Assembly: GCA_030425385.1 (NCBI GenBank)
Contig: JAUIAH010000001.1
Location: 744,001-808,000 of the forward strand
Source of the DNA: Verrucomicrobiia bacterium
GTDB taxonomy: Bacteria; Verrucomicrobiota; Verrucomicrobiia; Verrucomicrobiales; DEV007
Direction of reading: 5' to 3'
Length of the DNA: 64,000 nt
Below the pieces are notes generated by a model. That model saw only the letters and a list, made by a program, of their open reading frames with translations. It ran no database searches and was not told the origin of the DNA. Positions 3,829 through 62,896 of the stretch are shown in pieces. Position numbers and translations under genes: made by a program. Numbering within the stretch: the stretch's first letter is position 1; every line of letters starts with the position of its first letter.

Positions 3829-4230
3829 ATGAACCCCGTCACGATCCTCGACCGCCTGACGGATAGCCTGGGGGCCTTTCTCCTGCGGCTGGGGGAACAA
3901 TGCATCGCCCTGCTGGGGCGAGCCACCAGTCTACCGACCGGCTACCAGGTCCTCTTGGGTCTGGGGTTAGCGGGCGGCATGGGCCTGTGTTTCCTCTGGA
4001 TGCGTAGCGCCTTTGGGGATGCGGCGGCCATTGCCAAAGGGGTGCGGAAAGCGGGACGCGATTACGCCGATGCCAAGCAAGCCCTGGCCATCCGGGATCG
4101 GCGCAAGGCGTGGGGTTACCTCATGGGTGTGGCCTTCCTTCTGGCTGTGGGAGCCCTCGTCCTCTTCCTTGTGCTGGCCATGCGCAGTCCCAGCAGTCCT
4201 CCGCCCGTGAGCGATTTCAGCGGGAGGTGA
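3829..4230 (+). CDS. Small integral membrane protein, unknown
   Basis: A 133-residue protein with two clear membrane segments (about 44-62 and 101-122) separated by a charged loop rich in Arg, Lys and Asp (about 70-98). Its N-terminus contains an amphipathic stretch around ILDRLTDSLGAFLLRLGEQ. The start at 3829 (ATG) is chosen because the frame upstream only reads through the antisense of the divergent lipoprotein gene. Its start is 88 bp from that gene's start, so the two are divergent. No family is recognised and no function is proposed. Confidence 0.65.
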   Translation: MNPVTILDRLTDSLGAFLLRLGEQCIALLGRATSLPTGYQVLLGLGLAGGMGLCFLWMRSAFGDAAAIAKGVRKAGRDYADAKQALAIRDRRKAWGYLMGVAFLLAVGALVLFLVLAMRSPSSPPPVSDFSGR

Positions 4231-4240
4231 GGGCGCCCAT

Positions 4241-4801
4241 TCAGGCGATCTCGAGACGGTAACGAGGCAAGGACGTGTCCACTTCGGCCGCGTAGCGATC
4301 GATGCCGCCCTGCAGCACCCTGACATTCTCAAAACCATGACCTTCAAGGTAGGCGGCCGCATCCATGCAGCCATTCTCCCCCTGATGATCGTAGATGACG
4401 ATGGCCCGGTCCTTGGGCCAGCGACTCATGATCTCGTTGAGTTTGTCGTGGGAGAAGAGTTCCGCCTCGGCGATCCTCGCGTTCTCAAACTCCTCGCGGG
4501 TGCGGAGATCGAGAAGCGATGGCGCGGTCTCATCCTCTAGCAAAGCCTTCAATGTGTCTGGAGACACTTGGCGAGCGAGATCGCGCGTATGGCTTTCCTG
4601 AATGTGGGCGATGGCCTCTTGCAGATCGACGCCTTCATTGCGATCGCACACGCCACCGAGAGTCTCGTCTGGGCGGAAGCCACAGGAGGCACAGCCACCG
4701 ATGTGATACTTGGCAAAGAGCGCGCGCTGTGCCCCTGGATAGCGATCGAGCACCGTCGCCATCGTCGTCGCGCCTTCAAGAGGAGGAAGTTCTGTCGTCA
4801 T
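4241..4801 (-). CDS. DUF1858-like plus rhodanese-like two-domain protein
   Basis: A 186-residue protein with two parts. The N-terminal 65 residues resemble the small domain found in hybrid-cluster-associated or DUF1858-type proteins, with a Cys pair in GGCASCGF. The C-terminal half (about 85-180) is a rhodanese fold with the hallmark DLRTREEFENARI start and the LEGHGFENVRVLQGGIDRY end. The residue where the rhodanese catalytic Cys is expected is Asp (IYDHQGENGC), with a Cys seven positions later, so classical sulfurtransferase activity is doubtful. The ATG at 4801 is preferred; an in-frame ATG at 4837 abuts the stop of the SGNH hydrolase gene just upstream. Confidence 0.8.
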   Translation of the reverse strand: MTTELPPLEGATTMATVLDRYPGAQRALFAKYHIGGCASCGFRPDETLGGVCDRNEGVDLQEAIAHIQESHTRDLARQVSPDTLKALLEDETAPSLLDLRTREEFENARIAEAELFSHDKLNEIMSRWPKDRAIVIYDHQGENGCMDAAAYLEGHGFENVRVLQGGIDRYAAEVDTSLPRYRLEIA

Positions 4802-4837
4802 GCCTGGAAATCTAAGCAGGGACCAGCGAGGATCCAT

Positions 4838-5527
4838 TCATTTGCGCTTTGCATCCTCAGGAGCGAGGAGCGTGCGCAAGAGCGCGGTCCATCTCTCATA
4901 ACCCGCGTCGTTCAAGTGCAAGCCATCGTCGGCGAAATACGCAGCGTCCGGCTTGCCGTCCTCGCCTAACAAAAGTGGTGCGATATTCGCAAACTGCTCC
5001 AGGGGCTCTTCCTGACAGCGCTTGGCGATGGCGTCGTTCGCCTCCTTCATCGTTGGCCACCGATTCCAACGCTTGAGGCTCGGCTTGATGGCAATGAAGA
5101 TGATCTTTGTTTCAGGAAGCTGCTCTCGCACGGCCCCGACGAATTTGAGGTAGTCGCTGAGCACCGCATCCGCTGACAAGCCACCGCCCACGTCGTTGTC
5201 ACCTGCGTAAAGGACAATGGTCTTTGGTGCGTAGGGAAAGACGATCTGATCTGCGTGGTGGATGGCGTCCTGAATCCAGGAACCGCCGAAGCCACGATTG
5301 ATGATCGTCAACTTGGGAAAGAACTTCTCCGTGTCCCAAAGGCGAATGCTAGAGCTTCCGAGAAAGAGAATTTGCCCTTTCGAGGGTGGGGCTTGGCGAT
5401 CCTTCTCAGCAAAAGTCTCCATAGCGTCTGCCCACCGAGCAGGGTCAGGACGTTTCACAGGCTCATCACCAAGAACGCTGCTAGCGGTGGAAAGGGCGAA
5501 TAGGACGGGGCCGATGATACGAAACAT
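4838..5527 (-). CDS. Secreted SGNH/GDSL-family hydrolase
   Basis: A 229-residue protein with a short signal peptide (about 1-20) and an SGNH esterase fold. Block I is FLGSSSIRLW with the nucleophile Ser. Block II is the Gly in NRGFGGS, block III is YAGDND with the oxyanion Asn, and block V is DDGLHLND with the catalytic Asp and His. Enzymes of this group deacetylate or de-esterify polysaccharides or lipids. Substrate cannot be told from sequence. Its TGA stop is followed immediately by an alternative ATG of the rhodanese-like gene, so the two are probably cotranscribed. It is divergent from the MacB-type ABC pair, with 73 bp between the starts. Confidence 0.88.
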   Translation of the reverse strand: MFRIIGPVLFALSTASSVLGDEPVKRPDPARWADAMETFAEKDRQAPPSKGQILFLGSSSIRLWDTEKFFPKLTIINRGFGGSWIQDAIHHADQIVFPYAPKTIVLYAGDNDVGGGLSADAVLSDYLKFVGAVREQLPETKIIFIAIKPSLKRWNRWPTMKEANDAIAKRCQEEPLEQFANIAPLLLGEDGKPDAAYFADDGLHLNDAGYERWTALLRTLLAPEDAKRK

Positions 5528-42115: not shown

Positions 42116-42124
42116 TTAAGGTTT

Positions 42125-43027
42125 ATGAAGATAGTTTTAACGTTCCTTTCCTTGGGAGTGGCATGGACCCTCTCAGCTTCGGCCAATTTGAAAGTGGCGA
42201 CCTTGCACCCGGTCTTGACTGATCTGGCGCAACAGGTGGGCGGCGATCACGTCGAGGTCAACGGGCTCCTGAAGCTGGGTGGGGATCCCCATGATTTCGC
42301 ACCATCTGCCGCTGATATCCGTAGTTTGAGCACTGCAAAGCTTGTCCTGGCCTCTGGGAAAGGGTTGGAGCCTTATTTGGAGAAATTGTCGGACAACCTA
42401 TCGGAGGGGCAAGTTCTGTTAGAGGTGGGCCGTGCGATCCCGTCGATCACGATCTCGGAAGATAGCGCGCTCTTCGTGTGTTGCCCGCATCATAGTGAAG
42501 GGAGTTTGGACCCACACTGGTGGCACAGCGTGAAGGCCATGGAGCGCGCCACGGGTATTGTCGAGAAGGCGTTTGCGGAGTCGGATCCCGCGAATGCGAA
42601 GGTGTATAAGGAACGGGCCAAAGCTTACAAGCAGGAGTTGGAGGCGCTGGGGAAATGGGCACGGAAGGAAGTCGCCAAGATCCCGCGTTCACATCGCAAA
42701 CTAGCCACAGCTCATGCAGCGTTCACGTATTTCTGTCAGGAATTTGGATTTCAATCGATGCCGATTCAGGGGTTGTCCAAAGAGTATGAGGTGACGAGTC
42801 AGTATTTGGCGGACGTGGCTGAGGAATTGAAGGCGCATGAGATTCAGGCAGTGTTCCCCGAGGCGGCGTCGAATCCTAAAGTGTTAGGAGAGATGATCCG
42901 TGGCACGCAGGCTGGTTTGGGAACGCCCTTGTTTGCGGATTTCACCGGCAGTGAGAAGGCTCGCACCTACAAGCAGATGTTTGAACATAATGTGACGGTC
43001 ATTGTGAAGGCGCTTGGCAAGCGCTGA
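42125..43027 (+). CDS. Periplasmic zinc/manganese-binding protein (ZnuA/cluster 9 family)
   Basis: A 300-residue protein with a signal peptide (about 1-18). It is a cluster A-I/ZnuA-type binding protein with KVATLHPVLTDLAQQVGGD at the start. The metal ligands are visible as His in GGDPHDF, His in LDPHWWH, His in TAHAAFTYF and Glu in VFPEAASN. The His-rich loop that marks many ZnuA proteins is short here (CCPHHSEG). It hands the metal to the ZnuB-like permease encoded downstream. Whether zinc or manganese is bound is open; the ATPase resembles those of Mn/Zn systems. Confidence 0.92.
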   Translation: MKIVLTFLSLGVAWTLSASANLKVATLHPVLTDLAQQVGGDHVEVNGLLKLGGDPHDFAPSAADIRSLSTAKLVLASGKGLEPYLEKLSDNLSEGQVLLEVGRAIPSITISEDSALFVCCPHHSEGSLDPHWWHSVKAMERATGIVEKAFAESDPANAKVYKERAKAYKQELEALGKWARKEVAKIPRSHRKLATAHAAFTYFCQEFGFQSMPIQGLSKEYEVTSQYLADVAEELKAHEIQAVFPEAASNPKVLGEMIRGTQAGLGTPLFADFTGSEKARTYKQMFEHNVTVIVKALGKR

Positions 43028-43034
43028 CGGACGC

Positions 43035-43472
43035 ATGCGCGGGTTCCCACTCTTTCACACGGGGCTGATGGTAATCGCCCTAGCAGTGTTGGCGTGGCCG
43101 CTCATCATCCTGACACGACCGGCATCATCGGTACAAGCCGCGCCAGTCCAGCAGTCGGAGGCATCGCTTGCTGCGCACATTCCGGTACGTTTGGATGCCC
43201 GCTGGGCGCATGTGCCTGAGTATCTCCTGGTCTCACACTTAGGCGAGCCGCTTTGGGAGGCCGCGAGCTTGAGCGCTTTGCAAGCGGGCTTGGATGCGAC
43301 CCTGTCGATTCCAGAGGAAGGCGTCGATCTTGAGGTGACGGTGCGATGGCCGGAGGGCACGCCAACGTCGGCGTTGCAACTCACCGTCACGCCGGAGGCT
43401 TTGCCTGCCCAGGATCAGGTCCTGTGGGGAACAGTGGACGAGAGCGACGTGCTTACCTATCAATGGAAGTGA
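43035..43472 (+). CDS. Small membrane-anchored periplasmic protein in metal operon, unknown
   Basis: A 145-residue protein with one N-terminal membrane segment (about 8-25) and a beta-rich periplasmic domain (about 50-145, LDARWAHVPEYLLVSHLGEP and on). No known family is recognised. It lies 7 bp after znuA and 1 bp before the ATPase gene, so it is part of the operon and may be an accessory subunit. No metal-ligand clusters are visible. Confidence 0.72.
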   Translation: MRGFPLFHTGLMVIALAVLAWPLIILTRPASSVQAAPVQQSEASLAAHIPVRLDARWAHVPEYLLVSHLGEPLWEAASLSALQAGLDATLSIPEEGVDLEVTVRWPEGTPTSALQLTVTPEALPAQDQVLWGTVDESDVLTYQWK

Positions 43473-43473
43473 G

Positions 43474-44235
43474 ATGAAAGCTCACGATTGCAAGAGTCAT
43501 CACGTCCTTGAAGTGGAGAATCTGTGCGTGAGCTATGGGAAAGTGCCAGCCGTGCGTGAAGTGGCTTTCGAAACCCAATGCGGGAAGAGCGTGGCGCTGG
43601 TAGGACCGAATGGCGCCGGCAAGAGCACCTTGTTGAAGGCACTGGCAGGATTGGAGCGCCCGGAGTGTGGCGAGATCCGCTGGCGAGGCCGAGCGATGAC
43701 GCAATCGAGTCACGAGATCGCCTATCTGCCTCAGCGCGAGGAGATTGATTGGAATTTCCCAGCGACCGTGCGTGGAATCGTCGACATGGGACGCTATCCG
43801 CACCTGGGCTGGTGGCGGCGCTTTCGCTCGGAAGACGCTGAGCGAGTCGATGCTGCGTTAAGAGCCATGGACCTGGAGGACCTACAGGATCGGCAAATCA
43901 GCGCGCTTTCAGGCGGGCAACAACAGCGAGCTTTCCTTGCGCGCGCCTTGGCTCAGGAAGCGCATGTGTTTCTGTTAGATGAGCCCTTCACCGGGCTGGA
44001 TGCCGATGCGCAAGAGCGGTTGCGAGCGTTGTTTGACTCGCTCAAAGCTGAAGGTCGTTTGATCATCGCTTCGCACCACGATCTGGACACGGTACCCAGC
44101 ATCTATGACGAAGTGCTCTTGCAGGCGACCACTCAAGTGGCCTTCGGTGCGGTCCATGAGGTATTCACATCACGGCATTTGAAACAAGTGTTTGGGCGCG
44201 CAATGGCCGTCATGGGGGGAGGTCAGACCGTATGA
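43474..44235 (+). CDS. Metal ABC transporter ATP-binding protein (ZnuC/MntB-like)
   Basis: A 253-residue ATPase. Walker A is GPNGAGKST, the Q-loop region is AYLPQREEIDWNFPATV, the signature is LSGGQQQRAFLARAL, Walker B is VFLLDEPFTGLD and the switch His is in IIASHHDLD. The LPQREEIDWNFP stretch is characteristic of the cluster of Mn/Zn/Fe ABC ATPases. It overlaps the permease gene by 4 bp. It powers metal uptake across the inner membrane. Confidence 0.94.
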   Translation: MKAHDCKSHHVLEVENLCVSYGKVPAVREVAFETQCGKSVALVGPNGAGKSTLLKALAGLERPECGEIRWRGRAMTQSSHEIAYLPQREEIDWNFPATVRGIVDMGRYPHLGWWRRFRSEDAERVDAALRAMDLEDLQDRQISALSGGQQQRAFLARALAQEAHVFLLDEPFTGLDADAQERLRALFDSLKAEGRLIIASHHDLDTVPSIYDEVLLQATTQVAFGAVHEVFTSRHLKQVFGRAMAVMGGGQTV

Positions 44236-45101
44236 ATTGGCTAACAGAACCCTTTGAGTGGGTGATCTATCAGCGCGCCTTGCTGGCGGCTGTCATCATT
44301 GGGTTTACGAATGGTTATGTCAGTGCCTACGTCGTCTTGCGGAAAGCGGCGTTGAAGACAGGTTCCCTTTCCCATGCGCTGCTCCCCGGGATCGCGGTGG
44401 CCATCTGGCTCTTCGGCCTGACCGCTTTCAATGCCTTTGCAGGAGCGGTGGTGGCAGCATTGATGATTGGCTTGGGGTCCTTGCTAGTGGCTCAAACATC
44501 ACGGATTGATCAGGACACCGCGTTGGGTGTTCTCTACACGGCGGCGTTCTCAGGAGGCATTGTCTTGCTTAATTTCGTCAATGCTCCGGGCGAGTTGGAG
44601 CATTGGTTGTTCGGGGATATCCGAGGGATGTCCGATAGCGATCTATGGACCGTGTTTGGAATCGCGGTCGCGTCTCTCGTGGGCCTCACATTGTTCAAGC
44701 GTCCAATCATTGTGATGCTGTTTGAGCCAAACGTCGCGCGGAGTTTAGGCATCCCGGTGACGATGATGAATTACCTGCTGTTTGCCCTCGTGATCTTTGT
44801 GCTCATTTCGTCGATCCAAGCCGTGGGCTGCATCTTGGCCCTCGGCTTGCTGGTCTCCCCAGGAGCGACCATGCTGCTGTTCACAGACTCACCCTCACGT
44901 TTGTTCTGGGGAGGAGGCTTCTTGGGAGCCATCTCTTCGGTCGCGGCTCTGATCGTTTCTTACTGGTTTGATTGGCCTCCAGGATCGAGCATCGTTCTGG
45001 TGCTGGGAGCGGTCTTCGTGATCGCGTTTGTCGCCAGCCCGCGCTATGGGCTTGCGAGTAAGTGGCGTCGGCGGCATGTTCATGACGTTTCTTCATCATG
45101 A
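44232..45101 (+). CDS. Metal ABC transporter permease (ZnuB/MntC family)
   Basis: A 289-residue polytopic protein with about eight membrane helices and family landmarks AALKTGSLSHALLPGIAVA near the N-terminus, DTALGVLYTAAFSGGIVLL in the middle and VGCILALGLLVSPGATMLL near the end. It forms the channel for Zn(2+) or Mn(2+). It overlaps the ATPase gene upstream and the Fur-family gene downstream by 4 bp each, so all are translationally coupled. Confidence 0.94.
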   Translation: MNWLTEPFEWVIYQRALLAAVIIGFTNGYVSAYVVLRKAALKTGSLSHALLPGIAVAIWLFGLTAFNAFAGAVVAALMIGLGSLLVAQTSRIDQDTALGVLYTAAFSGGIVLLNFVNAPGELEHWLFGDIRGMSDSDLWTVFGIAVASLVGLTLFKRPIIVMLFEPNVARSLGIPVTMMNYLLFALVIFVLISSIQAVGCILALGLLVSPGATMLLFTDSPSRLFWGGGFLGAISSVAALIVSYWFDWPPGSSIVLVLGAVFVIAFVASPRYGLASKWRRRHVHDVSSS

Positions 45102-45586
45102 GTGACGCCCATTCCCATACCCACTCTCACGGCCAATCGTGTGTGGTTTCGCGTGGTGAGACAGAGGCTCTGGTGGATGAATTTGTCGCTTCTCTGCGGG
45201 CGGATGGGTTCCGCCGTACGGACGCGTTGGTAGCGTTGTTGCGCGTGATGATCCGCAACCATCAACCCTACACCTTGGCGGAATTGGCAGAGGTCGAGGA
45301 TCTCCGCGAGCGGGATCAGGCCACGATCTATCGGCTCGTGATGAAGTTGAAAGACGCGGGCAAGATGCGCCAACTGAACTTGGCAGGACGCGTGAGCTAT
45401 TTCCAGCTCGTACTGCCCGGGCATCACCATGACTACCTCCGTTGTGAGTCATGTGGGGAGGTGCAAGAGGTGCCCTTGCCTTGTGCATTGGCCGAGGTGG
45501 AACGTGAACTCATGCATTCTCTGGGGTGGAAAGGTCTGCATCACGAACTGGAGTTCATTGGGTTGTGTCCCGCCTGTGCCGACTGA
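45098..45586 (+). CDS. Fur-family metal-responsive regulator (Zur-like)
   Basis: A 162-residue protein with an unusual His-rich N-terminus (SDAHSHTHSHGQSC). A winged-helix DNA-binding domain follows (about 45-100, ending RDQATIYRLVMKLKDAGKM). The dimerisation domain has the regulatory site GHHHDYLRCESCGE and a C-terminal CPAC. The two CxxC pairs form the structural zinc site. The last gene of the metal operon, it probably represses it when metal is plentiful; Zur rather than Fur or Mur is favoured by context only. Confidence 0.9.
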   Translation: MSDAHSHTHSHGQSCVVSRGETEALVDEFVASLRADGFRRTDALVALLRVMIRNHQPYTLAELAEVEDLRERDQATIYRLVMKLKDAGKMRQLNLAGRVSYFQLVLPGHHHDYLRCESCGEVQEVPLPCALAEVERELMHSLGWKGLHHELEFIGLCPACAD

Positions 45587-54538: not shown

Positions 54539-57052
54539 GTGCAGCTTACATTTCACCAACCGCTTCTTTGGCTGGGTGTCCTTGTGTTGCTGGGGATTGG
54601 GTTTGGTTGGTCCTTGGTGGATCGGCCTATCGGGCGGCATTGGGGGGCGTTTCTCTGTCGGGCCATGGCTGTGTTGCTCCTGGTGCTGGCTCTGTGCCGT
54701 CCCGTGAGCTTGCTGGAAAGGGACGATGCGCACGTCTTGTTTCTGGTGGATGTGTCAGAATCAGTCAATCTTGACGCGGCTTTGGAGGTGCTTGATCTGG
54801 TGGAGGCTGCGGTGAGTGATCTGCGCCCGAAGGATTCATACGATTTGGCGGTGGTGGCGGATGGCTGTCGCGTCGTCGAGAATGCCGCTGCGCTCAGGGC
54901 GTTAATCGTTTCTTGGCAGGAAGCTTTTGTGGACGATGAGTTCCGACAAGCGTCTCGGTTGGAGGAGAGTTTGCGGGAGGCACGGTTGCGGTTTCCGGCT
55001 TCAAAGGCCAAACGTGTCGTGCTTTTCTCGGACGGTCACGAGACGCACGGCGACCTTGCACTGGCATTGTCTACCCTCGCCCAGGAAGGGATCGACGTCC
55101 GGTGGCATTCATTGGAGAGTCTAGCAGAAGCCGAGGCGGCGGTGGTGGCGCTAGAGGCCAGCTCTGCGAGCGCTTACGAAGGGGAAACGGTGCGCTTACG
55201 TGTCGACGTGGCGGCGAACCGTGCCATGGATGCACGCTTGCGTCTTGTGCATCAAGGCGTCGTCGCGCAGGAGCAGGCGGTCTCATTGAAGGCGGGCACG
55301 CAGCGGATTGATGTGGATGTGCCCATGCTGACTTCTGGTGATGGTGTATGGGTAGCGGAGATCGTATCGAGCGCGGATCATTTCCCATTGAACAACCAGC
55401 TTCGAACCACGGTGAAGGTGATAGGAAAGCCGCGTGTCTTGGCGTTGCATGAGGAGTCCCGCGAGTTGCGGAACTTCGTCCGGGCAATGAAGCAGCAAGA
55501 GATTGAAATTGAGGTACGTGGGGTGCGTGGGCTTCCTGAGTCGCTTGAGGAAATGCTTGCCTTTGATGCGATCCTCTTCTCTGACATTCCGGCTACGGCC
55601 TTGACGGAGTCCCAGATGGCTTTGGTAAAACGTTATGTCATGGACTTCGGTGGAGGGGTGGCCATGGTGGGATCGGAGAATTCCTTCGGATTAGGGGGTT
55701 ACTACCAAACGCCGGTGGAGGAGGTGCTGCCTCTAGTCTCGCGCTTTGAGAAGGAGAAGCAGAAACCATCTCTGGCGATGGTCCTGGTGATCGACAAATC
55801 AGGTTCCATGCAAGGGCTGCCGATTACCCTTGCGCGCCAAGCGGCCAAGGCCTCAGTGGAGCTCCTTGGCGCTCGTGATCAGATGGGCGTTATTGGTTTT
55901 GATGGAGAGCCGCAGATCGTTTCAGAACTGCGTGCAGCCACAGAGTCGGCGGCGATTCACGCAGGGATTGATTCCCTCAGTGCTGGGGGCGGAACGGATG
56001 TTTATCGAGGAATGTTAGCAGGGAAAGAACTGTTAGATCATGCTCTAGCAAAGATCAAGCACATGATTGTGCTCACCGACGGTCAGACTAGCGATGCGGA
56101 TTTCGTAGGGCTCTTGCAGGCGATGAATGATCGCGCCATCACTGTGTCTACCGTGGCGCTGGGCGAAGAGGCGGCACGGGAATTACTCGCCAGTATCGCG
56201 GAACTGGGGCGTGGGCGTTACTATGAAACGATGGATCCAGCCTCTGTTCCGCAGATCTTCACGAAGGAGACGATGCAGGCATCCAAATCGGCCATCAAGG
56301 AAGACCTCTATGCGCCTGTGATCGTTGGGGATCATGCACTATTGTCAGGGTATGCGGAAGAAGAATTGCCTTTCGTCCTCGGCTATGTGATGACCGAACC
56401 CAAGCCTACCGCGCGGGTGCTCTTAGGATTGGAAACGGGTGATCCCTTGCTGGCATTGGGAAATTATGGGCTTGGAAAGGGCATGGCCTTCACCGCGGAC
56501 CTAACGGAACGTTGGGGGAGTGAATGGCTTGCCTGGGCGGGCGGGGGGCGCTTCTGGGCGCAGGCGCTGCGTACGCTCCTCCGGCGGGCGGACACCCAGG
56601 GCATGGAGGTGGTGACCTCGGTGCAGGACCAGAGCCGAATGTGGAGCGTGGACGTGCGCCGCGTAGATGTGCAACAACGCCCCCTCGCGGGCATCACTTG
56701 GGAAGCGCAAGCCCTGGATGAACAAGGACGCGAGCAAGCTGTGGAAGTACGGGAAACGGGGTTGGGTCGCTATGCCATGCGTGTTCCGCTAGGGGATCAC
56801 GAGCAGCTCACCTTGCGCCTGCGTGATCGCGACCATGATCTCGTCAAGGTGCTTCACTATCATCGCCCCTATCCACGTGAATACATGTTAGGCGACGAGA
56901 TTCCCGAGGCGCTCCGCCAAACGCCCGCTTTTGAGATGGACGCGTTGTTAGAGGGATTGCAGCCTTCAGTGGCGCGGACATCGCTCACGCCGTGGGTAGC
57001 GTTCGGAGCCCTGGCCTTTACTCTTCTGGGGCTGCTTCTTCGCCGCTTGTAG
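54539..57052 (+). CDS. Membrane protein with two vWA domains and GATase-like domain
   Basis: An 837-residue protein of the BatA-like/vWA class found in Planctomycetes and Verrucomicrobia. Two membrane helices at the start (about 9-28 and 38-58) are followed by a degenerate vWA domain (about 66-200, LVDVSES). A class I glutamine-amidotransferase-like domain comes next (about 300-395), then a second vWA domain (about 405-575) with an intact MIDAS in DKSGSMQG. A C-terminal helix anchors the end (LTPWVAFGALAFTLLGLLL). The start is GTG at 54539. It is divergent from blaI across the double operator. Confidence 0.85.
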   Translation: MQLTFHQPLLWLGVLVLLGIGFGWSLVDRPIGRHWGAFLCRAMAVLLLVLALCRPVSLLERDDAHVLFLVDVSESVNLDAALEVLDLVEAAVSDLRPKDSYDLAVVADGCRVVENAAALRALIVSWQEAFVDDEFRQASRLEESLREARLRFPASKAKRVVLFSDGHETHGDLALALSTLAQEGIDVRWHSLESLAEAEAAVVALEASSASAYEGETVRLRVDVAANRAMDARLRLVHQGVVAQEQAVSLKAGTQRIDVDVPMLTSGDGVWVAEIVSSADHFPLNNQLRTTVKVIGKPRVLALHEESRELRNFVRAMKQQEIEIEVRGVRGLPESLEEMLAFDAILFSDIPATALTESQMALVKRYVMDFGGGVAMVGSENSFGLGGYYQTPVEEVLPLVSRFEKEKQKPSLAMVLVIDKSGSMQGLPITLARQAAKASVELLGARDQMGVIGFDGEPQIVSELRAATESAAIHAGIDSLSAGGGTDVYRGMLAGKELLDHALAKIKHMIVLTDGQTSDADFVGLLQAMNDRAITVSTVALGEEAARELLASIAELGRGRYYETMDPASVPQIFTKETMQASKSAIKEDLYAPVIVGDHALLSGYAEEELPFVLGYVMTEPKPTARVLLGLETGDPLLALGNYGLGKGMAFTADLTERWGSEWLAWAGGGRFWAQALRTLLRRADTQGMEVVTSVQDQSRMWSVDVRRVDVQQRPLAGITWEAQALDEQGREQAVEVRETGLGRYAMRVPLGDHEQLTLRLRDRDHDLVKVLHYHRPYPREYMLGDEIPEALRQTPAFEMDALLEGLQPSVARTSLTPWVAFGALAFTLLGLLLRRL

Positions 57053-58655
57053 TGGTGGACGGCGTGTCTTCCTCGATGCCTGGCTCGTCGAGTGGTTCCG
57101 CAGAAAGCGTGTCTTCAGTTAGGAGTTCCGCCGCTTGGATTCCGTTCACAGCGCGGCCTCCGGGGAGATCGAAATGACGCTCGCCTTCTTCGTAGGGCAC
57201 CACCCAAGAATCGGCGACCAGCGCCGTGATCTCTACCAACGTGTCCCGCGTTCTAGAGGGAGGGAATTGGACGCCGACCACAACCTGAGCGTTGGCATCT
57301 TCGTCAGGAATCAAGTCGCGCAAACGGAGCTCGGCATCGGTCCCAATCATGGCGAATCCGTTTACGGCCCGCAGTTCTCCTGGATAGATGAGGCGGAAAG
57401 AGCGGAAGATGGTGGGATCATTAAACGGAACGCCGAAGTAAGTCGATGGCTGCAACGTTAGTCTGAAATAGGTGGTTGTGGTAGGGCGTTCCAGACGCCA
57501 TTTCTGCCACTCCATGGGTTGATACCCCACGGCTACTTCCCAGTCGACTTTGGGCCCTTGTGAGGTGTGTTCGATCGCGACTTCGCGTCGCGTGCCCATC
57601 AGGCCGAGCGCCGTCTGATGCATCGTCACATCGAGCCCTGGTAGATCCGCACGTCGATGATTCTCGAAATTCTCCACTTCATGCCGCCGGATTGGTTGGA
57701 GGATGTAGTAGCGCCGAAGCAAGGGCATGACGGTGTTCGGACGGCGGATCAGCGGCTCGAAATCCTCGACGTTCCTCACGGCGTAGAATTGGCGGATGAG
57801 GGCTTTCGCTTCTTCGATATCTTCATGCGTCAGCGGTTGGAGATAGCGCGGAGTGGTATTGGGAGCGTCGGGAGATGCTGTCTCCGTGCCGTATTGCATG
57901 GCATCGCGGACGAACCAGAACACGGTACCGCCGAGGACGAGGAGTAGCAGAAGAGTGATCCAGACACTATCAAAACGGCCCCCGCGCAAGAACCACGAGA
58001 TGATGGGTAAATCTTGCAGCCGGGTGATGAGGCGCTCGCGAAAGGTGAGGGTGATTGGTCGAGGGGGATCCACCAAGGGAGGTGCGTCCGTTCCGAGCTT
58101 CTCCCAATTCTTGGTGAAACGCGCTTGGTCCTCTCCCGAAATCTCTGGAGTTTCCGGAGGAGCAGCCTCGTTGGCTTCACTGATCGGCTGCGGCGTGGGT
58201 GGTTCGTAGTGTTCTTTGGGCATCATTCCGAGTTTCCGGCCCACCTCCGAGATCTGCCCATCGCGCAGGATGAGTCGCCGAGTTTCTTCGAGGGCATTCC
58301 GTTCATGGTCGAGGAGGGGAACTGTACCCGGCTGTGAGGGAAAGGGAACCAAGGGTGCTGCGGGTGGGCGTTTCGCGTCTTCTTTGCGCACGCGCTTCCG
58401 ACTGATATCGGTCACCACGGGCGTGTCAGGCCGGGCCCCTTCGGAGCGCGTGCTCCGCTTGACGACGCCTTTTGTGGCCGTCTTCAATTGCTCCAGGAAG
58501 CTCGCTTTCCACGACCGGACCAATTCCGGATCCAATCCATGCTCTTGAGCAATTGTCTCGGGAGGGACGCTCTCACGGATCATCCGCTGAATGGCGGCCT
58601 CTCGGAATGCTGGATCTTCAGGATTCCCAGACGGTTGAGCGCTGGATGTAGACAT
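57018..58655 (-). CDS. HTH - transmembrane - periplasmic-domain fusion protein
   Basis: A 545-residue protein. Residues about 17-53 form a transposase-like helix-turn-helix (REAAIQRMIRESVPPETIAQ and SWKASFLEQL). A long basic and Pro-rich linker follows (about 60-220), then one membrane helix (231-249). A periplasmic domain from about 265 carries the landmarks VDWEVAVGYQPMEWQKW and FRLTLQPSTYFG shared with the protein at 46665. The tail is acidic and Thr-rich. A membrane-bound transcription regulator that senses something in the periplasm is the simplest reading. It overlaps the convergent vWA gene by 35 bp. Confidence 0.72.
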   Translation of the reverse strand: MSTSSAQPSGNPEDPAFREAAIQRMIRESVPPETIAQEHGLDPELVRSWKASFLEQLKTATKGVVKRSTRSEGARPDTPVVTDISRKRVRKEDAKRPPAAPLVPFPSQPGTVPLLDHERNALEETRRLILRDGQISEVGRKLGMMPKEHYEPPTPQPISEANEAAPPETPEISGEDQARFTKNWEKLGTDAPPLVDPPRPITLTFRERLITRLQDLPIISWFLRGGRFDSVWITLLLLLVLGGTVFWFVRDAMQYGTETASPDAPNTTPRYLQPLTHEDIEEAKALIRQFYAVRNVEDFEPLIRRPNTVMPLLRRYYILQPIRRHEVENFENHRRADLPGLDVTMHQTALGLMGTRREVAIEHTSQGPKVDWEVAVGYQPMEWQKWRLERPTTTTYFRLTLQPSTYFGVPFNDPTIFRSFRLIYPGELRAVNGFAMIGTDAELRLRDLIPDEDANAQVVVGVQFPPSRTRDTLVEITALVADSWVVPYEEGERHFDLPGGRAVNGIQAAELLTEDTLSAEPLDEPGIEEDTPSTTTSGEEAAPEE

Positions 58656-58789
58656 TAGAATGAGCGTGGCCTTCGACTTTCGAACGCGACGCAAACGACG
58701 TTCTCGGTTCTGACCGCGAGTGTAGGGGAACGTTCGATCCAGGCAAGGAATCTACCGGGGAAACGCGTGCGGCCTTTCAGCTTTGCGAA

Positions 58790-58856: not shown

Positions 58857-60107
58857 ATGCCTCGCCTCTGTCCATTCCTTGTTGTCGCCCTGATCGTCCT
58901 CGGCTTGGGATCCAGCTGGGCACACCAGGTGGAAGGAGGCAACTTGCAGCTGATTGCCGAGCTGGAGGATGAGTATTTGCTCTATGATGTCAGTGCGGAA
59001 ACGTCGCTCGTCCCACCGCTCGCTGAGATCACCGCCGAATCCGAGAGCTTCCCGTCGAAAGAGAGCATTGCCGAATCCCTGACAGCGTATTTCGCGGAGC
59101 ATTGCCCCGTGCGTATTGACGGGATCGAAGTGGCGCCAGTGCTAGAAGAGATCGATTTCCAAAAGCTGGAGAACCAGGTGAACCTTGGGGAAGTGACAGA
59201 TTTCGTCATGAGCTATTTCCTCATGAAGTATCCAGTCAAGACCAAGCCGCAGACGGTCGACATGCGGTGGGGCATCTATCTTCCTGACAGAGTGAAAGAC
59301 CTAGTTCCTCAAGTTCCGGATCCCACGGGGCACGAGCCTCAAATGGTGGACACAATCTTCTACACCTTCGGCGAGTTGGACCTTGTTGTCTTCAGCCCGA
59401 AAGAGCCGCAGTACATCTGGCATTCGCCCAAGCCGGTGTTGTCGGTGGATGCGGAGGCGCGTTTGCAAGCGGCCATGGCGGCGGTGTCCGCCGCGAGCCA
59501 ACGCTTCTTTCCGCTGGGTTGGGTCTTGGCGGGGCTCATGTTGGGAGTGACTGTCTTGTTAGGCCTCTTGGGGAAACGAGGCGTGGCCTTGGCGTGCGCA
59601 GGAGTGGCCGTGGCCCTCGGAGCGGCTCATGGAGCGCTCAAGATTCCCTTGCCGCACGAGCCGGAACGCCTCACCGCAGAGGCGGCCTTACAGCGTTTCC
59701 AGGATTTGCACCAGAATATCTATCGCGCTTTCGACTACGACTCAGATGAGGCGATCTACGACACCCTGGCACAGAGTGTTTCGGGTGAGTTGCTAGAAGA
59801 AATCTACAGTGATGTCTATAAGAGCCTCGTCATGAAAGAAGATGGAGGTGCTGTCTGTCGAGTGAAACAGTTAGAGTATCTGGACTGTTTGCCGAGCCCA
59901 TTGAATGACGGAGAGACCGGCTTTGCCTTTGATTGCCAGTGGCGCGTGCATGGGCTCGTCCAGCACTGGGGACACACCCACGAACGTGTCAATGAATACG
60001 CCGCGCGCTATGTGCTGAGCCAGGTGGACGATTGGTGGCGGATCACAGATGTGGAGGTGACCCGTGAGAAACGGCTCGATGCCCAGTCACTTGAGGTGGT
60101 GAACTAA
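58857..60107 (+). CDS. Unknown membrane protein, first gene of the unusual metal ABC operon
   Basis: A 416-residue protein with a signal peptide (about 1-22), a periplasmic domain (about 25-215, with QVEGGNLQLIAELEDEYLLYDV), two adjacent membrane helices (219-238 and 242-260) and a second periplasmic or cytosolic domain (about 270-416, with FDYDSDEAIYDTLAQSV). Scattered His and Asp/Glu residues are present but no clear metal cluster. No family is recognised. The ABC ATPase gene starts 4 bp after its stop, so it is probably a subunit or partner of the transporter. Confidence 0.7.
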   Translation: MPRLCPFLVVALIVLGLGSSWAHQVEGGNLQLIAELEDEYLLYDVSAETSLVPPLAEITAESESFPSKESIAESLTAYFAEHCPVRIDGIEVAPVLEEIDFQKLENQVNLGEVTDFVMSYFLMKYPVKTKPQTVDMRWGIYLPDRVKDLVPQVPDPTGHEPQMVDTIFYTFGELDLVVFSPKEPQYIWHSPKPVLSVDAEARLQAAMAAVSAASQRFFPLGWVLAGLMLGVTVLLGLLGKRGVALACAGVAVALGAAHGALKIPLPHEPERLTAEAALQRFQDLHQNIYRAFDYDSDEAIYDTLAQSVSGELLEEIYSDVYKSLVMKEDGGAVCRVKQLEYLDCLPSPLNDGETGFAFDCQWRVHGLVQHWGHTHERVNEYAARYVLSQVDDWWRITDVEVTREKRLDAQSLEVVN

Positions 60108-60111
60108 CATC

Positions 60112-60795
60112 ATGATGGAGCCAGAACAGCCGAGCATTCGTGTTGTGGATGTTCATTATCAGTATCCTTCCTCTTCCTTCGTTTTCCAGTTGCCGAGCTT
60201 CACCGCGCAGCCCGGTGAACGCGTGGCCATCACGGGCCCGAGCGGTTGTGGCAAGACGACTTTGCTCCGCCTGATCACGGGGTTGCTGCAGCCTCAGAAG
60301 GGGCGCGTCTTTCTCGGGGGGGAAGAGATCAGCGTGTTGCCGGAGAAGGCGAAACGTGCGCTGCGCATCGCTCGGGTGGGTTCCATTCCTCAGGAGTTGG
60401 ATTTGTTAGACTATCTCTGTGTGGAGGACAACATGCTCCTCCCATTCTCTATCAATCGTGCCTTGCGTCTCACCTCGGCTGCGCGCGAAGAGCAGCGCCA
60501 GCTCACGGATGCGCTCGGCTTGCAGGGAAAGCATGCGCGCTTCCCTCATCAACTCTCCCAAGGAGAACGCCAGCGTGTCGCGATCGGGCGCGCCCTCATC
60601 ACGCGGCCTGAGATCCTCGTGGCGGACGAGCCCACGGGCAACCTAGACGGCAACACGGCACGACAGGTGTTAGAATTGTTAGGCAAGTTGATCGAAGAAC
60701 GGGGCACCACTCTCTTGATGGTCACGCATGACCTCAGCCTGCTCGATTTCTTTGATCGGCAATTTGATCTCACAGAGGCATCGGAAACGGCATGA
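60112..60795 (+). CDS. LolD/MacB-type ABC ATP-binding protein
   Basis: A 227-residue ATPase with Walker A GPSGCGKTT, signature LSQGERQRVAIGRAL, Walker [13 protein letters not shown] and the switch His in VTHDLSLLD. The EPTGNLD motif puts it in the LolD/MacB/FtsE group, not in the ZnuC/Fur-type metal ATPases. It overlaps the permease gene by 4 bp. Confidence 0.92.
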   Translation: MMEPEQPSIRVVDVHYQYPSSSFVFQLPSFTAQPGERVAITGPSGCGKTTLLRLITGLLQPQKGRVFLGGEEISVLPEKAKRALRIARVGSIPQELDLLDYLCVEDNMLLPFSINRALRLTSAAREEQRQLTDALGLQGKHARFPHQLSQGERQRVAIGRALITRPEILVADEPTGNLDGNTARQVLELLGKLIEERGTTLLMVTHDLSLLDFFDRQFDLTEASETA

Positions 60796-61970
60796 CACAG
60801 GTCTTTCGGCTCACGTGGCGCTACCTCGCCTTTCACAAACTGCGGTCGGTCATTCTCGTGACTTGCCTCGCCCTGACATTTCTCTTGCCCGCCTATCTGC
60901 ATCTTCTCATCAGTCAATATGAGACAAATCTCACGGAGCGCGCACGGCAAACTCCTCTGGTGTTGGGGCCGCGAGGCAACCCCTTTGATCTCGTCTTGCG
61001 CACGCTCTATTTCACTCGGACGAAGGACGAAACGGTCACCATTTCCCTGGCAGATCAACAGGAAGCGGAGAGTCATCGACGGGGAACCGTGATTCCAATG
61101 CATCTGGGCTACACGGCAAGAGATTTCCCGGTGGTGGGCACGAGCTTGGAATACATCGAGCATCGCCAGCTGCAGCTGGCGCACGGCACGCTGCCCTTGG
61201 TCTTGGGAGATGCCGTGCTTGGGAGTGATGTGGCACAAAGGCTAGGATTGATGCCTGGGGATCATGTGCTCACGGATCAGACAAGCCTCTATAACATTGC
61301 GGCGGAGCAGCCTTTGAAACTCCAAGTGGTGGGAGTGCTCTCTCCCAGCCACACACCCGACGATGGCGCGGTCTTTGTCGATACAAAGACGGCCTGGGTC
61401 ATCGCGGGACTGGGACATGGGCATGATGATTTGGAAAAGCCCGAGAATCAGGGCCAACTGCTCAAACGAGACGCTGATGGTTCCTTGGTAGGGAGCGCTG
61501 CTGTGGCTCCGTATCGGGAGATCACGGCAGAGAATCTCGCCAGTTTCCACTTTCATGGGGAGCCGAACGCCCTGCCGCTTTCCTCATTGATCCTCGTTCC
61601 GGACGACGCGAAGAATCGCACCATTCTCAAGGGGCACTACCAACTTTCAGAGACGGTTCAATTGCTTCCCCCAGCCGAGGTGGTCGATGATTTGCTCGCC
61701 ATCGTCTTCAAAGTGAAGCGTTTCTTTGATGCCAGCTTCACCCTCGTCCTCCTGACGACCGCATTGTTCCTCGTCTTGGTCATGGTTCTAACGTGGAAGC
61801 TGCGCCAGCGCGAGCGCGAGACGCTCACACGGATTGGGTGTGGACGCGGTACCATCGCCTGGCTGCAGATCTCCGAATTACTCCTCTTGCTTGCCTTCGG
61901 CCTGGTCCTGGCTTTTCTCCTCGCCTACCTGCTTGTATCTCTGACAGAACCCCAAACGCTTTTCTCATGA
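60792..61970 (+). CDS. FtsX/MacB-type ABC permease
   Basis: A 392-residue protein. One N-terminal helix (about 16-38) is followed by a large periplasmic domain (about 40-300) and three C-terminal helices (about 312-334, 345-365, 370-388). The plan is that of FtsX/LolC/MacB, with a short form of the domain. A His-containing segment (GHGHDDLEKPEN) lies in the periplasmic part. It overlaps the ATPase gene upstream and the ZnuA-like gene downstream by 4 bp, so all are translationally coupled. Confidence 0.85.
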   Translation: MTQVFRLTWRYLAFHKLRSVILVTCLALTFLLPAYLHLLISQYETNLTERARQTPLVLGPRGNPFDLVLRTLYFTRTKDETVTISLADQQEAESHRRGTVIPMHLGYTARDFPVVGTSLEYIEHRQLQLAHGTLPLVLGDAVLGSDVAQRLGLMPGDHVLTDQTSLYNIAAEQPLKLQVVGVLSPSHTPDDGAVFVDTKTAWVIAGLGHGHDDLEKPENQGQLLKRDADGSLVGSAAVAPYREITAENLASFHFHGEPNALPLSSLILVPDDAKNRTILKGHYQLSETVQLLPPAEVVDDLLAIVFKVKRFFDASFTLVLLTTALFLVLVMVLTWKLRQRERETLTRIGCGRGTIAWLQISELLLLLAFGLVLAFLLAYLLVSLTEPQTLFS

Positions 61971-62896
61971 AACTCCCCTCATTTCCCTTCCTAACAATGG
62001 CCTGCATGGCTGGCTTCGTCATCAGTGCTTGTGATCAGAAGCCTGCTGAGACGACGGCAGACGCATCGGCGCCGGAGAAACCAGTGGTGCTCACGACCTT
62101 TTATCCGACCCAGTACTTCGCCGAGCGTATCGGTCAGGACTTGATCGATGTCCGCTGTCCCTTGCCAGAAGGTGCTGATCCGATCCACTGGATGCCTGAT
62201 GCGGAGGCGCTTCAGGCCTACCAAAGTGGGGACCTTGTGGTGATCAATGGAGCCGAGTTTGAGCAATGGGTTGGCAAAGTGAGCTTGCCCACGAGCAAAG
62301 TGGTGAACACGGCTGCAGGCTTCGAAGACCAGTTTGTGCGCTATGAGCACGCTGTCCGGCACAAGCACGGGCCCGAAGGCGAGCACAGCCACGAAGGCAT
62401 CGATGGCCATACCTGGGTGGATCCCGTCAATGCGGTGGCCCAGGCCGAGGCGCTCGCCGCCGCCCTCACCAAGCTACGACCAGATCAGGAGGGCGCTATA
62501 GCCGGGGGAATGGCCTCTTTGAAAGAGGACCTCCTTGCGCTCGACGCCCGCTGGCGTGCCTTTGCGCAGGCATGGGGAGATCGCCCTCTCTTCGCGTCGC
62601 ATCCGGCCTACAACTACATTGCGAGTCGCTACGATTTGCAGATCCTCTCATTTGATTTCGATCCTGACGAAGTCCCCGACCACGACGCCTTGCATGAAGT
62701 GGAACATGAGCTTGAGGACGCGGAAGCCACGCTGATGCTCTGGGAGAGTGAACCCAAGCCACAGGTGGCGGCCGCTCTGGCAAAGCTTGGATTCACCAAT
62801 ATCACCGTGTCCCCCTGCGAATCGGCTCCTGAGGATGGCGACTATTTGAGCGTGATGCAAGAAGGGCTCGCGAGGTTAGAAGCTCAGGTGCCCTAG
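61967..62896 (+). CDS. ZnuA-like metal-binding lipoprotein
   Basis: A 309-residue protein with a lipoprotein signal (about 1-22, VISACDQ). The mature part is a cluster A-I metal-binding fold: LTTFYPTQYFAERIGQD, His in EGADPIHWMP, His in DGHTWVDP, His in ASHPAYNYIA and an acidic ligand in LMLWESEPK. A His-rich loop (RHKHGPEGEHSHEG, about residues 120-135) is like that of ZnuA. Only the FtsX-type permease encoded in the same operon is available as partner. It probably feeds or senses zinc. Confidence 0.88.
   Translation: MKLPSFPFLTMACMAGFVISACDQKPAETTADASAPEKPVVLTTFYPTQYFAERIGQDLIDVRCPLPEGADPIHWMPDAEALQAYQSGDLVVINGAEFEQWVGKVSLPTSKVVNTAAGFEDQFVRYEHAVRHKHGPEGEHSHEGIDGHTWVDPVNAVAQAEALAAALTKLRPDQEGAIAGGMASLKEDLLALDARWRAFAQAWGDRPLFASHPAYNYIASRYDLQILSFDFDPDEVPDHDALHEVEHELEDAEATLMLWESEPKPQVAAALAKLGFTNITVSPCESAPEDGDYLSVMQEGLARLEAQVP

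Follow-up and report, generated by a model that had tools for sequence, protein, structure and literature searches.

Near the end of the window analysed here (the whole 64,000-nucleotide stretch of contig JAUIAH010000001.1 from a Verrucomicrobiia bacterium), four genes on the forward strand, G1 to G4, encode a two-helix membrane protein, an ATPase and a permease of the FtsX/MacB type, and a ZnuA-type lipoprotein. Going by their sequences, we propose that G1–G4 could form a mechanotransmission ATP-binding cassette (ABC) machine of the MacB/FtsX type that handles a zinc-class divalent metal outside the cytoplasm, most likely for its acquisition. This is our best, if still tentative, explanation; that the module handles metal at all, direction aside, is in our judgement quite probable. 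Histidine motifs that are invariant or nearly so lie in the predicted extracytoplasmic parts of G1, G3 and G4, and it is from these and their surroundings that we infer both the metal and the direction of transport. Three features of the family had not been anticipated in an earlier note on this DNA: the missing fourth transmembrane helix (TM4) of G3 together with its HGH and FHxH motifs, the loss of a ligand from G4 together with a retained loop, and an NTF2-like domain with an HxxHxH motif in G1. The features of the locus are as follows (AF2, AlphaFold2; ORF, open reading frame).

58857..60107, + strand: G1, 416 aa, with signal peptide, periplasmic beta-rich domain, two TM helices and C-terminal NTF2-like domain, as predicted from ORF, hydropathy, AF2 model and fold search
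59658..60086, + strand: predicted NTF2-like C-terminal domain of G1, residues 268-410 (VIA-align range)
59964..59987, + strand: G1 motif HWGHTHER, residues 370-377; H370, H373 and H375 invariant in 54/54 rows, 53/53 distinct
60112 or 60115..60795, + strand: G2, ATPase of FtsE/LolD/MacB type, 226-227 aa (Pfam, NCBIfam, motifs read from the sequence)
60792..61970, + strand: G3, FtsX/MacB-type permease, 392 aa, three predicted TM helices, TM4 absent (Pfam, hydropathy, AF2 model, fold search, alignment)
61416..61424, + strand: G3 HGH motif, residues 209-211; H209 and H211 in 70/70 distinct sequences
61548..61556, + strand: HxH of the G3 FHFHG motif, residues 253-255, in an insert; H253 and H255 in 70/70 distinct sequences
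61967..62896, + strand: G4, ZnuA-type lipoprotein, 309 aa, lipobox Cys 22 (Pfam, PDB relatives, alignment)
62183..62185, + strand: G4 codon 73 (Ile), the place of the first canonical ZnuA-type ligand His; His in 0/52
62360..62392, + strand: G4 loop HKHGPEGEHSH, residues 132-142; histidines near-invariant (52, 52, 51 and 50 of 52)

Domain architecture and histidine motifs

As the earlier note had described, the four genes are tightly packed on the + strand: all four ORFs exist and their overlaps were confirmed. The ORF coordinates give a 4-nt overlap both for G2/G3 and for G3/G4 and a G1/G2 gap of 4 or 7 nt; the four genes are translationally coupled. Pfam assigned G2 to ABC_tran (2e-32) and G4 to ZnuA (PF01297, 4e-47), and G3 matched FtsX (9e-5) and MacB_PCD (2e-4), both below the curated cut-offs. 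None of the four proteins reached a model cut-off in NCBIfam (for G2, among the best 25 of 205 matches). The ATPase motifs of G2 are complete as read from the sequence, with Walker A GPSGCGKTT, signature LSQGE, Walker B ILVADEP and H-loop THD.

To describe G3 we used 109 matches at E<=1e-60, which gave 70 distinct sequences of at least 360 aa; counts over 71 rows include the window twice, and the row thresholds for G3, G4 and G1 alike favour typical family members. The AF2 model of G3 (mean predicted local distance difference test, pLDDT, 83.7) resembled a non-canonical pneumococcal ABC permease (Z 17.4, root-mean-square deviation (rmsd) 6.7, 307 aligned residues), the heme exporter HrtB (Z 15.5, rmsd 5.9, 282 aligned) and 3ftj (Z 14.5, rmsd 3.8, 189 aligned); LolE/LolCDE, MacB, FtsX (Z 12.8) and BceAB (Z 8.0 at best) were matched as well. 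In 70/70 distinct members the C-terminus lies 24-36 residues past the conserved Glu362 that marks the start of TM3, thus leaving no room for TM4. The G3 family as a whole (70/70 distinct sequences) is therefore predicted to lack the fourth MacB/FtsX helix. Hydropathy gave three helices in 62/71 rows and a fourth stretch in 9/71, none of them seen at the place of TM4; Zrg-type permeases were predicted to have four helices in 15/16 cases and five in 1/16. H209, H211, H253, H255, D190 and D191 were each present in all 70 distinct sequences, and the segment bearing H253/H255 is an insert missing from the aligned ZrgB sequences. The periplasmic core is retained in G3, and so is the TM2-TM3 loop, with R338, E341 and G349 invariant; by analogy this loop may serve as the coupling loop, as in MacB.

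The PDB relatives of G4 include AdcA (9e-24), YcdH and ZnuA. Among 52 deduplicated G4 sequences (E<=1e-45, at least 230 aa), the first canonical ligand of cluster A-I proteins was never a His (Ala 22, Ile 15, Glu 8, others 7), and the second and third ligand histidines were found in 26/52 and 40/52 members, respectively. All three are present in the ZnuA and the MntA-type proteins encoded by the window's genome. Residue 74, just past the lost ligand, is His in three of the 52 members, the window's included, so that a shifted ligand is possible in those members. The histidines of the loop HxHG..G.HxH are nearly fixed (see the list above), whereas in ordinary cluster A-I substrate-binding proteins (SBPs) the loop is variable in length and composition and generally unstructured, according to the part of PMC9820375 that was available. 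With cleft ligands lost and loop histidines kept, the conservation pattern of G4 is thus inverted relative to ordinary SBPs: by the alignment, its ZnuA-type cleft site is dismantled and its His-rich loop retained. The name "zinc ABC transporter substrate-binding protein", which G4 bears in the records of two plasmids, may therefore mislead, as this ZnuA-family protein has lost a defining ligand.

Hydropathy of G1 gave a hydrophobic N-terminus and two further helices, in agreement with the two-helix protein of the earlier note. Two helices preceded the C-terminal domain in 36/43 proteins, a single helix in 5/43 and, by the threshold used, none in 2/43. The C-terminal domain was predicted to be NTF2-like (best match 5had, ARC6; Z 12.4, rmsd 2.9, 127 aligned), and its HxxHxH motif was invariant in 53/53 distinct sequences (54 rows; matches at E<=1e-15, at least 110 aa). 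In the AF2 model (mean pLDDT 76.3 and predicted template modelling score, pTM, 0.47 for the whole protein) the N-terminal domain is beta-rich. In Foldseek the whole model matched ZrgA best (E 1.3e-5, TM-score by target 0.50, rmsd 9.1); a further listed match was 9gce, the copper-bound Ang-1 domain (E 1e-4), and neither came with an aligned range; in a second structural comparison all listed rows fell on residues 266-413. The mature N-terminus of the window protein is predicted to be a His (SSWA|HQV), as it is, by the same heuristic, in 22/39 long G1 proteins, the window's included. G1 had no Pfam match above cut-off, and membership of a named Pfam or NCBIfam family was rejected, nothing having exceeded a cut-off there. 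PDB sequence searches with the whole protein and with its N-terminal part returned matches at chance level only, and no similarity emerged when the profiles of G1 and G4 were compared. Identity of the N-terminal domain with ZrgA found no support by sequence (hhalign probability 1.2%, E 0.044), although G1 may have a remote structural likeness to ZrgA.

Recurrence and cohesion of the module

A G3 scan of one genome per species over 84,980 species revealed 11 loci, in Verrucomicrobiota (4), Phycisphaerae or Sedimentisphaerales (3), Sphingomonadales, Xanthomonadales, Chromatiaceae and one other bacterium. The four genes mostly stand together and in order; exceptions are L008 and L014, each deprived of one gene by the end of a contig, and L016, whose G1 is on the opposite strand at a distance of 1.8 kb. 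The module thus recurs in Verrucomicrobiota, Planctomycetota and Proteobacteria, and because the identical four-gene order recurs across three phyla, it is more than a chance arrangement. Larger sets, whose group names follow from titles of metagenome-assembled genomes (MAGs), were searched with a G3 profile. At E<=1e-40 it matched 69/324 genomes of Planctomycetota (the phylum of L011), 8/303 of the class of L018 (Chromatiaceae, hence Gammaproteobacteria) and 4/318 of the class of L016 (Sphingomonadales, hence Alphaproteobacteria). In the window's own phylum 39/387 genomes matched at E<=1e-10, seven of them at E<=1e-40, and the other 32 matches fall entirely inside roughly the first 220 positions.

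The order G1-G2-G3-G4 on one strand was found in 33/52 neighbourhoods and, masked by over-long ORFs, in L088 and L148. The incomplete neighbourhoods comprise G1-G2-G3 (5), G2-G3-G4 (5), G2-G3 (4), the inverted G1 of L016, G1-G3 (L156) and G3-G4 (L170), a few of them stopping at contig ends. The module also resides on two named plasmids, of Methylomagnum ishizawai (NZ_AP019784.1) and Paracoccus liaowanqingii (NZ_CP040763.1). Linkage was further assessed in the 324 Planctomycetota genomes (G3 at E<=1e-40, G1 at E<=1e-12, with the best 4-5 first-look candidates scored per genome). G1 occurred in 72 genomes, that is, in 69/69 with G3 and in 3/255 without it (Fisher p 1.5e-67, with species not independent). 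The joining of an FtsX/MacB pair to a ZnuA-type protein, which the earlier note had called unusual, therefore proved to be real and conserved.

Where the neighbourhood was incomplete, G1 was found in 16 of 17 searched genomes. Twelve of these had no whole G1 beside G3, and G1 was present in 11 of the 12. In genome G683 no more than a fragment of 42 residues remains, truncated where the contig ends next to the module, and the sole exception, G682, has a masked stretch at the module; G402, also without an adjacent G1, lay outside this 17-genome search. A search for G4 in 12 genomes gave a match in 11, and the best match of nine carried the loop HxHG..HxH. The earlier note had counted scattering of the genes in relatives against a common unit, and in part such scattering does occur: in four genomes of the window's order (G187, G190, G199 and G217) G2-G3 stand apart. 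These genomes, however, keep G1 and a loop-bearing G4 elsewhere, so that scattering mostly came with retention of the parts. Gene order and co-occurrence show that the four parts belong together.

Metal, direction and alternative explanations

In MacB-type complexes such as MacB and LolCDE, ATP hydrolysis drives movements of periplasmic parts. With histidine motifs on three predicted extracytoplasmic parts, a relay driven by such movements is the simplest reading of the module. Metal would be captured by the loop of G4 and by the N-terminal domain of G1, and ATP-driven movements of the periplasmic domain of G3 would hand it between the histidine motifs of G4, G3 and G1. The helices of G1 might complete the membrane part left without TM4, and the metal would finish in the cytoplasm, either directly or via a partner permease. 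A bolder version, a new class of ABC machine in which G1 supplies TM4 in trans, G4 is a ZnuA descendant turned from cleft binding to a loop-binding shuttle, and MacB-type mechanotransmission moves metal between invariant histidine sites on three extracytoplasmic proteins, is rather doubtful. We favour acquisition over export because of the ancestry of G4, the ZIP and TonB neighbours of the module and the growth phenotype of a zrg mutant: a V. cholerae znuA mutant under zinc limitation needs zrgA to grow (PMC9820375, in the portion available). In L088 and L137, genes for TonB receptors are found at most 10 kb from the module.

The window belongs to an 8.0 Mb assembly of 74 contigs whose nearest relatives are Verrucomicrobiales MAGs. 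The absence of a ZnuB-type permease, noted earlier, holds within G1–G4 but not for the genome, which encodes three ABC-3 (PF00950) permeases and four ZnuA-family proteins. One of these permeases lies 16 kb upstream of the module in the window itself, in a canonical zinc-uptake operon (about 42122-45586) of ZnuA, a 152-aa protein, ZnuC, ZnuB (ABC-3) and a Fur-family regulator that, with its His-rich N-terminus, is probably Zur. The second set, on contig C14, comprises two ABC-3 permeases with an adjoining DtxR-type regulator (Fe_dep_repress) and probably serves manganese. With a complete zur-znuABC in the genome, the module is a further system and not a Znu replacement. The earlier note had also considered that the lipoprotein might work with a canonical permease elsewhere; this is unlikely, since the ABC-3 operons are already provided with ZnuA-type proteins and G4 is without the first ligand.

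Zinc is suggested by the ZnuA family of G4, by the relation to Zrg and by a ZIP transporter gene that, in two genomes of Alphaproteobacteria, directly precedes a shortened G1 gene and overlaps its start. These ZIP genes lie at L138 4532-5311 (by Pfam) and L139 8853-9590 (by similar sequence), with a gene for a beta-propeller of the pyrroloquinoline quinone (PQQ) type after the module. Several observations weigh against our best explanation. Nickel or copper is hinted at by DUF4198 genes on both sides of the module in Paracoccus, by CopC upstream and NikR downstream in Methylomagnum, and by a DUF4198 gene beside an orphan G4 paralogue of the window's genome. Besides, this genome already possesses zur-znuABC and the second ABC-3 set beside a DtxR-type regulator, and among 42 upstream regions three cores of the Zur consensus were found in none and a loose actinobacterial core in one. 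An adjacent, co-oriented gene of the four is missing from 17/52 neighbourhoods; genome G1167 gave no G4 match, and the best matches in G1086 and G1322 are without the loop pattern. The predicted mature N-terminus of long G1 proteins is Asp in 8/39 and was not assigned in 9/39. Finally, PA4063-PA4066 of P. aeruginosa, from a sister family, has been assigned to cobalt-pyochelin export (PMC11481552, in the available text). As the metal hints conflict, we claim only a zinc-class divalent metal.

The assignment of PA4063-PA4066, together with the predicted fold of G3, which matches MacB and the heme exporter HrtB, is what speaks for an exporter in which G2/G3 would push a metal or a metallophore out like MacB or HrtBA, while G1 and G4 would act in the periplasm as adaptors or acceptors. 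We regard it as unlikely: among the neighbours, which were clustered but not annotated in every case, we saw no recurring fifth gene that might encode a partner of MacA or TolC type, and the ZIP-linked loci suggest import. To our knowledge, moreover, ZnuA-family proteins are capture proteins. MacB-, LolCDE- and FtsEX-type complexes are known for mechanical work outside the cytoplasm, and the module might likewise pull metal from G4 and load it into periplasmic or secreted metalloenzymes, much as LolCDE or FtsEX handle their envelope clients, without any membrane crossing. The histidine motifs on all three extracytoplasmic parts fit such metallation, and so do genes for hydrolases of the metallo-beta-lactamase (MBL) fold within a few kb of the module (L016 5735-7021, L132 12994-14001, L134 1-561, L150 2832-4142; Pfam for L016 only), one of which could possibly be a metal client. 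They occur, however, in only 4/52 neighbourhoods, and there is no constant client gene; we consider metallation about as unlikely as export. A role in periplasmic metal sensing or in the envelope, in which the histidine motifs would sense metal and the complex would signal or act on the cell wall in the manner of BceAB or FtsEX, draws on the matches of the G3 model to these two folds. It is the most improbable of these explanations, as it leaves a ZnuA-type part with a kept loop unexplained and as we saw no kinase, regulator or amidase that recurs among the neighbours. Metal handling with acquisition as its likeliest direction remains the reading that we prefer.

Beyond seven loci no true recurrent neighbour, and hence no fifth conserved gene, was found among the neighbour clusters, which were not all annotated; the larger unlabelled clusters (43, 31 and 22 loci) were taken, by position and composition, as shadow ORFs of the core genes. 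Upstream of G1, TAGGGGAACGTTCGATCCAGGCAAG (58723-58747) is strongly conserved in two relatives (L009 and L010). GGAAC with TCTACC 19 nt further on could be a G1 promoter of the extracytoplasmic function (ECF) type, or the element may belong to the divergent gene. The latter (57018-58694, - strand) encodes a membrane protein whose N-terminus carries a helix-turn-helix of transposase type (HTH_Tnp_1, below cut-off); in L010 a relative is found at the corresponding position. In the upstream regions inverted repeats showed no enrichment (4/42, with a mean of 5.0 after shuffling). The orphan G4 paralogue of the window's genome (L049 7642-9453, contig C25) carries an HxHGxxGxHxH loop, has no G1–G3 nearby and is followed by the DUF4198 protein. 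In L132 a homologue of pentameric ligand-gated ion channels (4042-5178; Neur_chan_LBD and Neur_chan_memb) directly follows G4.

Comparison with known systems

With MacB, LolCDE, HrtBA and YknZ the module shares the fold of G3, that is, a short TM1, a large periplasmic domain and C-terminal TM2 and TM3; it differs from them in lacking TM4, in the HGH and FHxH motifs and in its ZnuA-type partner. With the cluster A-I zinc importers ZnuABC and AdcABC it has the ZnuA family of G4 in common. In contrast to these, it is without an ABC-3 permease, its G4 has lost the first ligand His in 52/52 members, and the loop is near-invariant. The ABC-3 permeases of the window's genome lie elsewhere with their own binding proteins, whereas the permease of the module is of FtsX/MacB type.

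The anglerases (Ang-1/Ang-2 domains of HupE/UreJ-2) may resemble G1 in an N-terminal His, which in G1 is predicted for 22/39 long proteins. It was by an N-terminal His of this kind, following the signal peptide, that anglerases and DUF4198 were recognised as Cu- or Ni-binding (PMC12537917, as far as that text was available). Where anglerases have the HupE/UreJ-2 permease, a domain for which Pfam gave no match in G1, G1 has its two TM helices and NTF2-like domain. ZepA (PMC10957091) was rejected as a prior description of the module; it belongs to an exoprotein system, and permease, ABC, FtsX and MacB are absent from its main text. Among the matches listed from the open-licence literature we recognised no description of the module, although one may have been missed.

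The closest counterpart is Zrg (V. cholerae ZrgABCDE; P. aeruginosa PA4063-PA4066), a similarity that the earlier note had raised. Like the module, it combines a separate MacB-type ATPase, an FtsX-type permease and a dedicated His-rich periplasmic metal protein, and ZrgB-type permeases are the nearest relatives of G3 that we found. Kinship stands, but identity does not. G3 has no TM4 and bears an extra FHxH insert, and the module adds the ZnuA-type G4 and the architecture of G1. In a tree of 47 permeases, 30 G3 sequences split from ZrgB and the verrucomicrobial Zrg-like sequences with 100/100 support; two long branches join inside the G3 group, and their placement is unsure. ZrgA (PF10986) was found in 0/12 module-bearing genomes, and the same model matched 35/274 genomes of the class of G396, 31 of them above cut-off. 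With G3 separate from ZrgB and no ZrgA in these 12 genomes, we conclude that the module is not Zrg. A Pfam scan of the four window genes also gave no match to DUF3299 (ZrgE, PF11736). Other Verrucomicrobiota loci (L058-L069) hold mostly four-helix Zrg-like permeases with an ATPase, often followed by a gene of 150-170 aa that Pfam identified as DUF3299 in L058 and not in L064 or L066.

The module is a variant of the MacB/Zrg-type ABC systems and not a wholly new kind; it suggests an undescribed ATP-driven handling of metal outside the cytoplasm. The part that FtsX/MacB-type systems play in metal traffic is unsettled, Zrg being read as an importer (PMC9820375) and PA4063-PA4066 as an exporter (PMC11481552) in the available portions of these papers. 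Next to them the module would be a second natural experiment, in bacteria that are not known to us to be pathogens: capture, coupling and the membrane part reside on different polypeptides, and the residues to mutate can be named exactly. It makes direction and metal directly testable.

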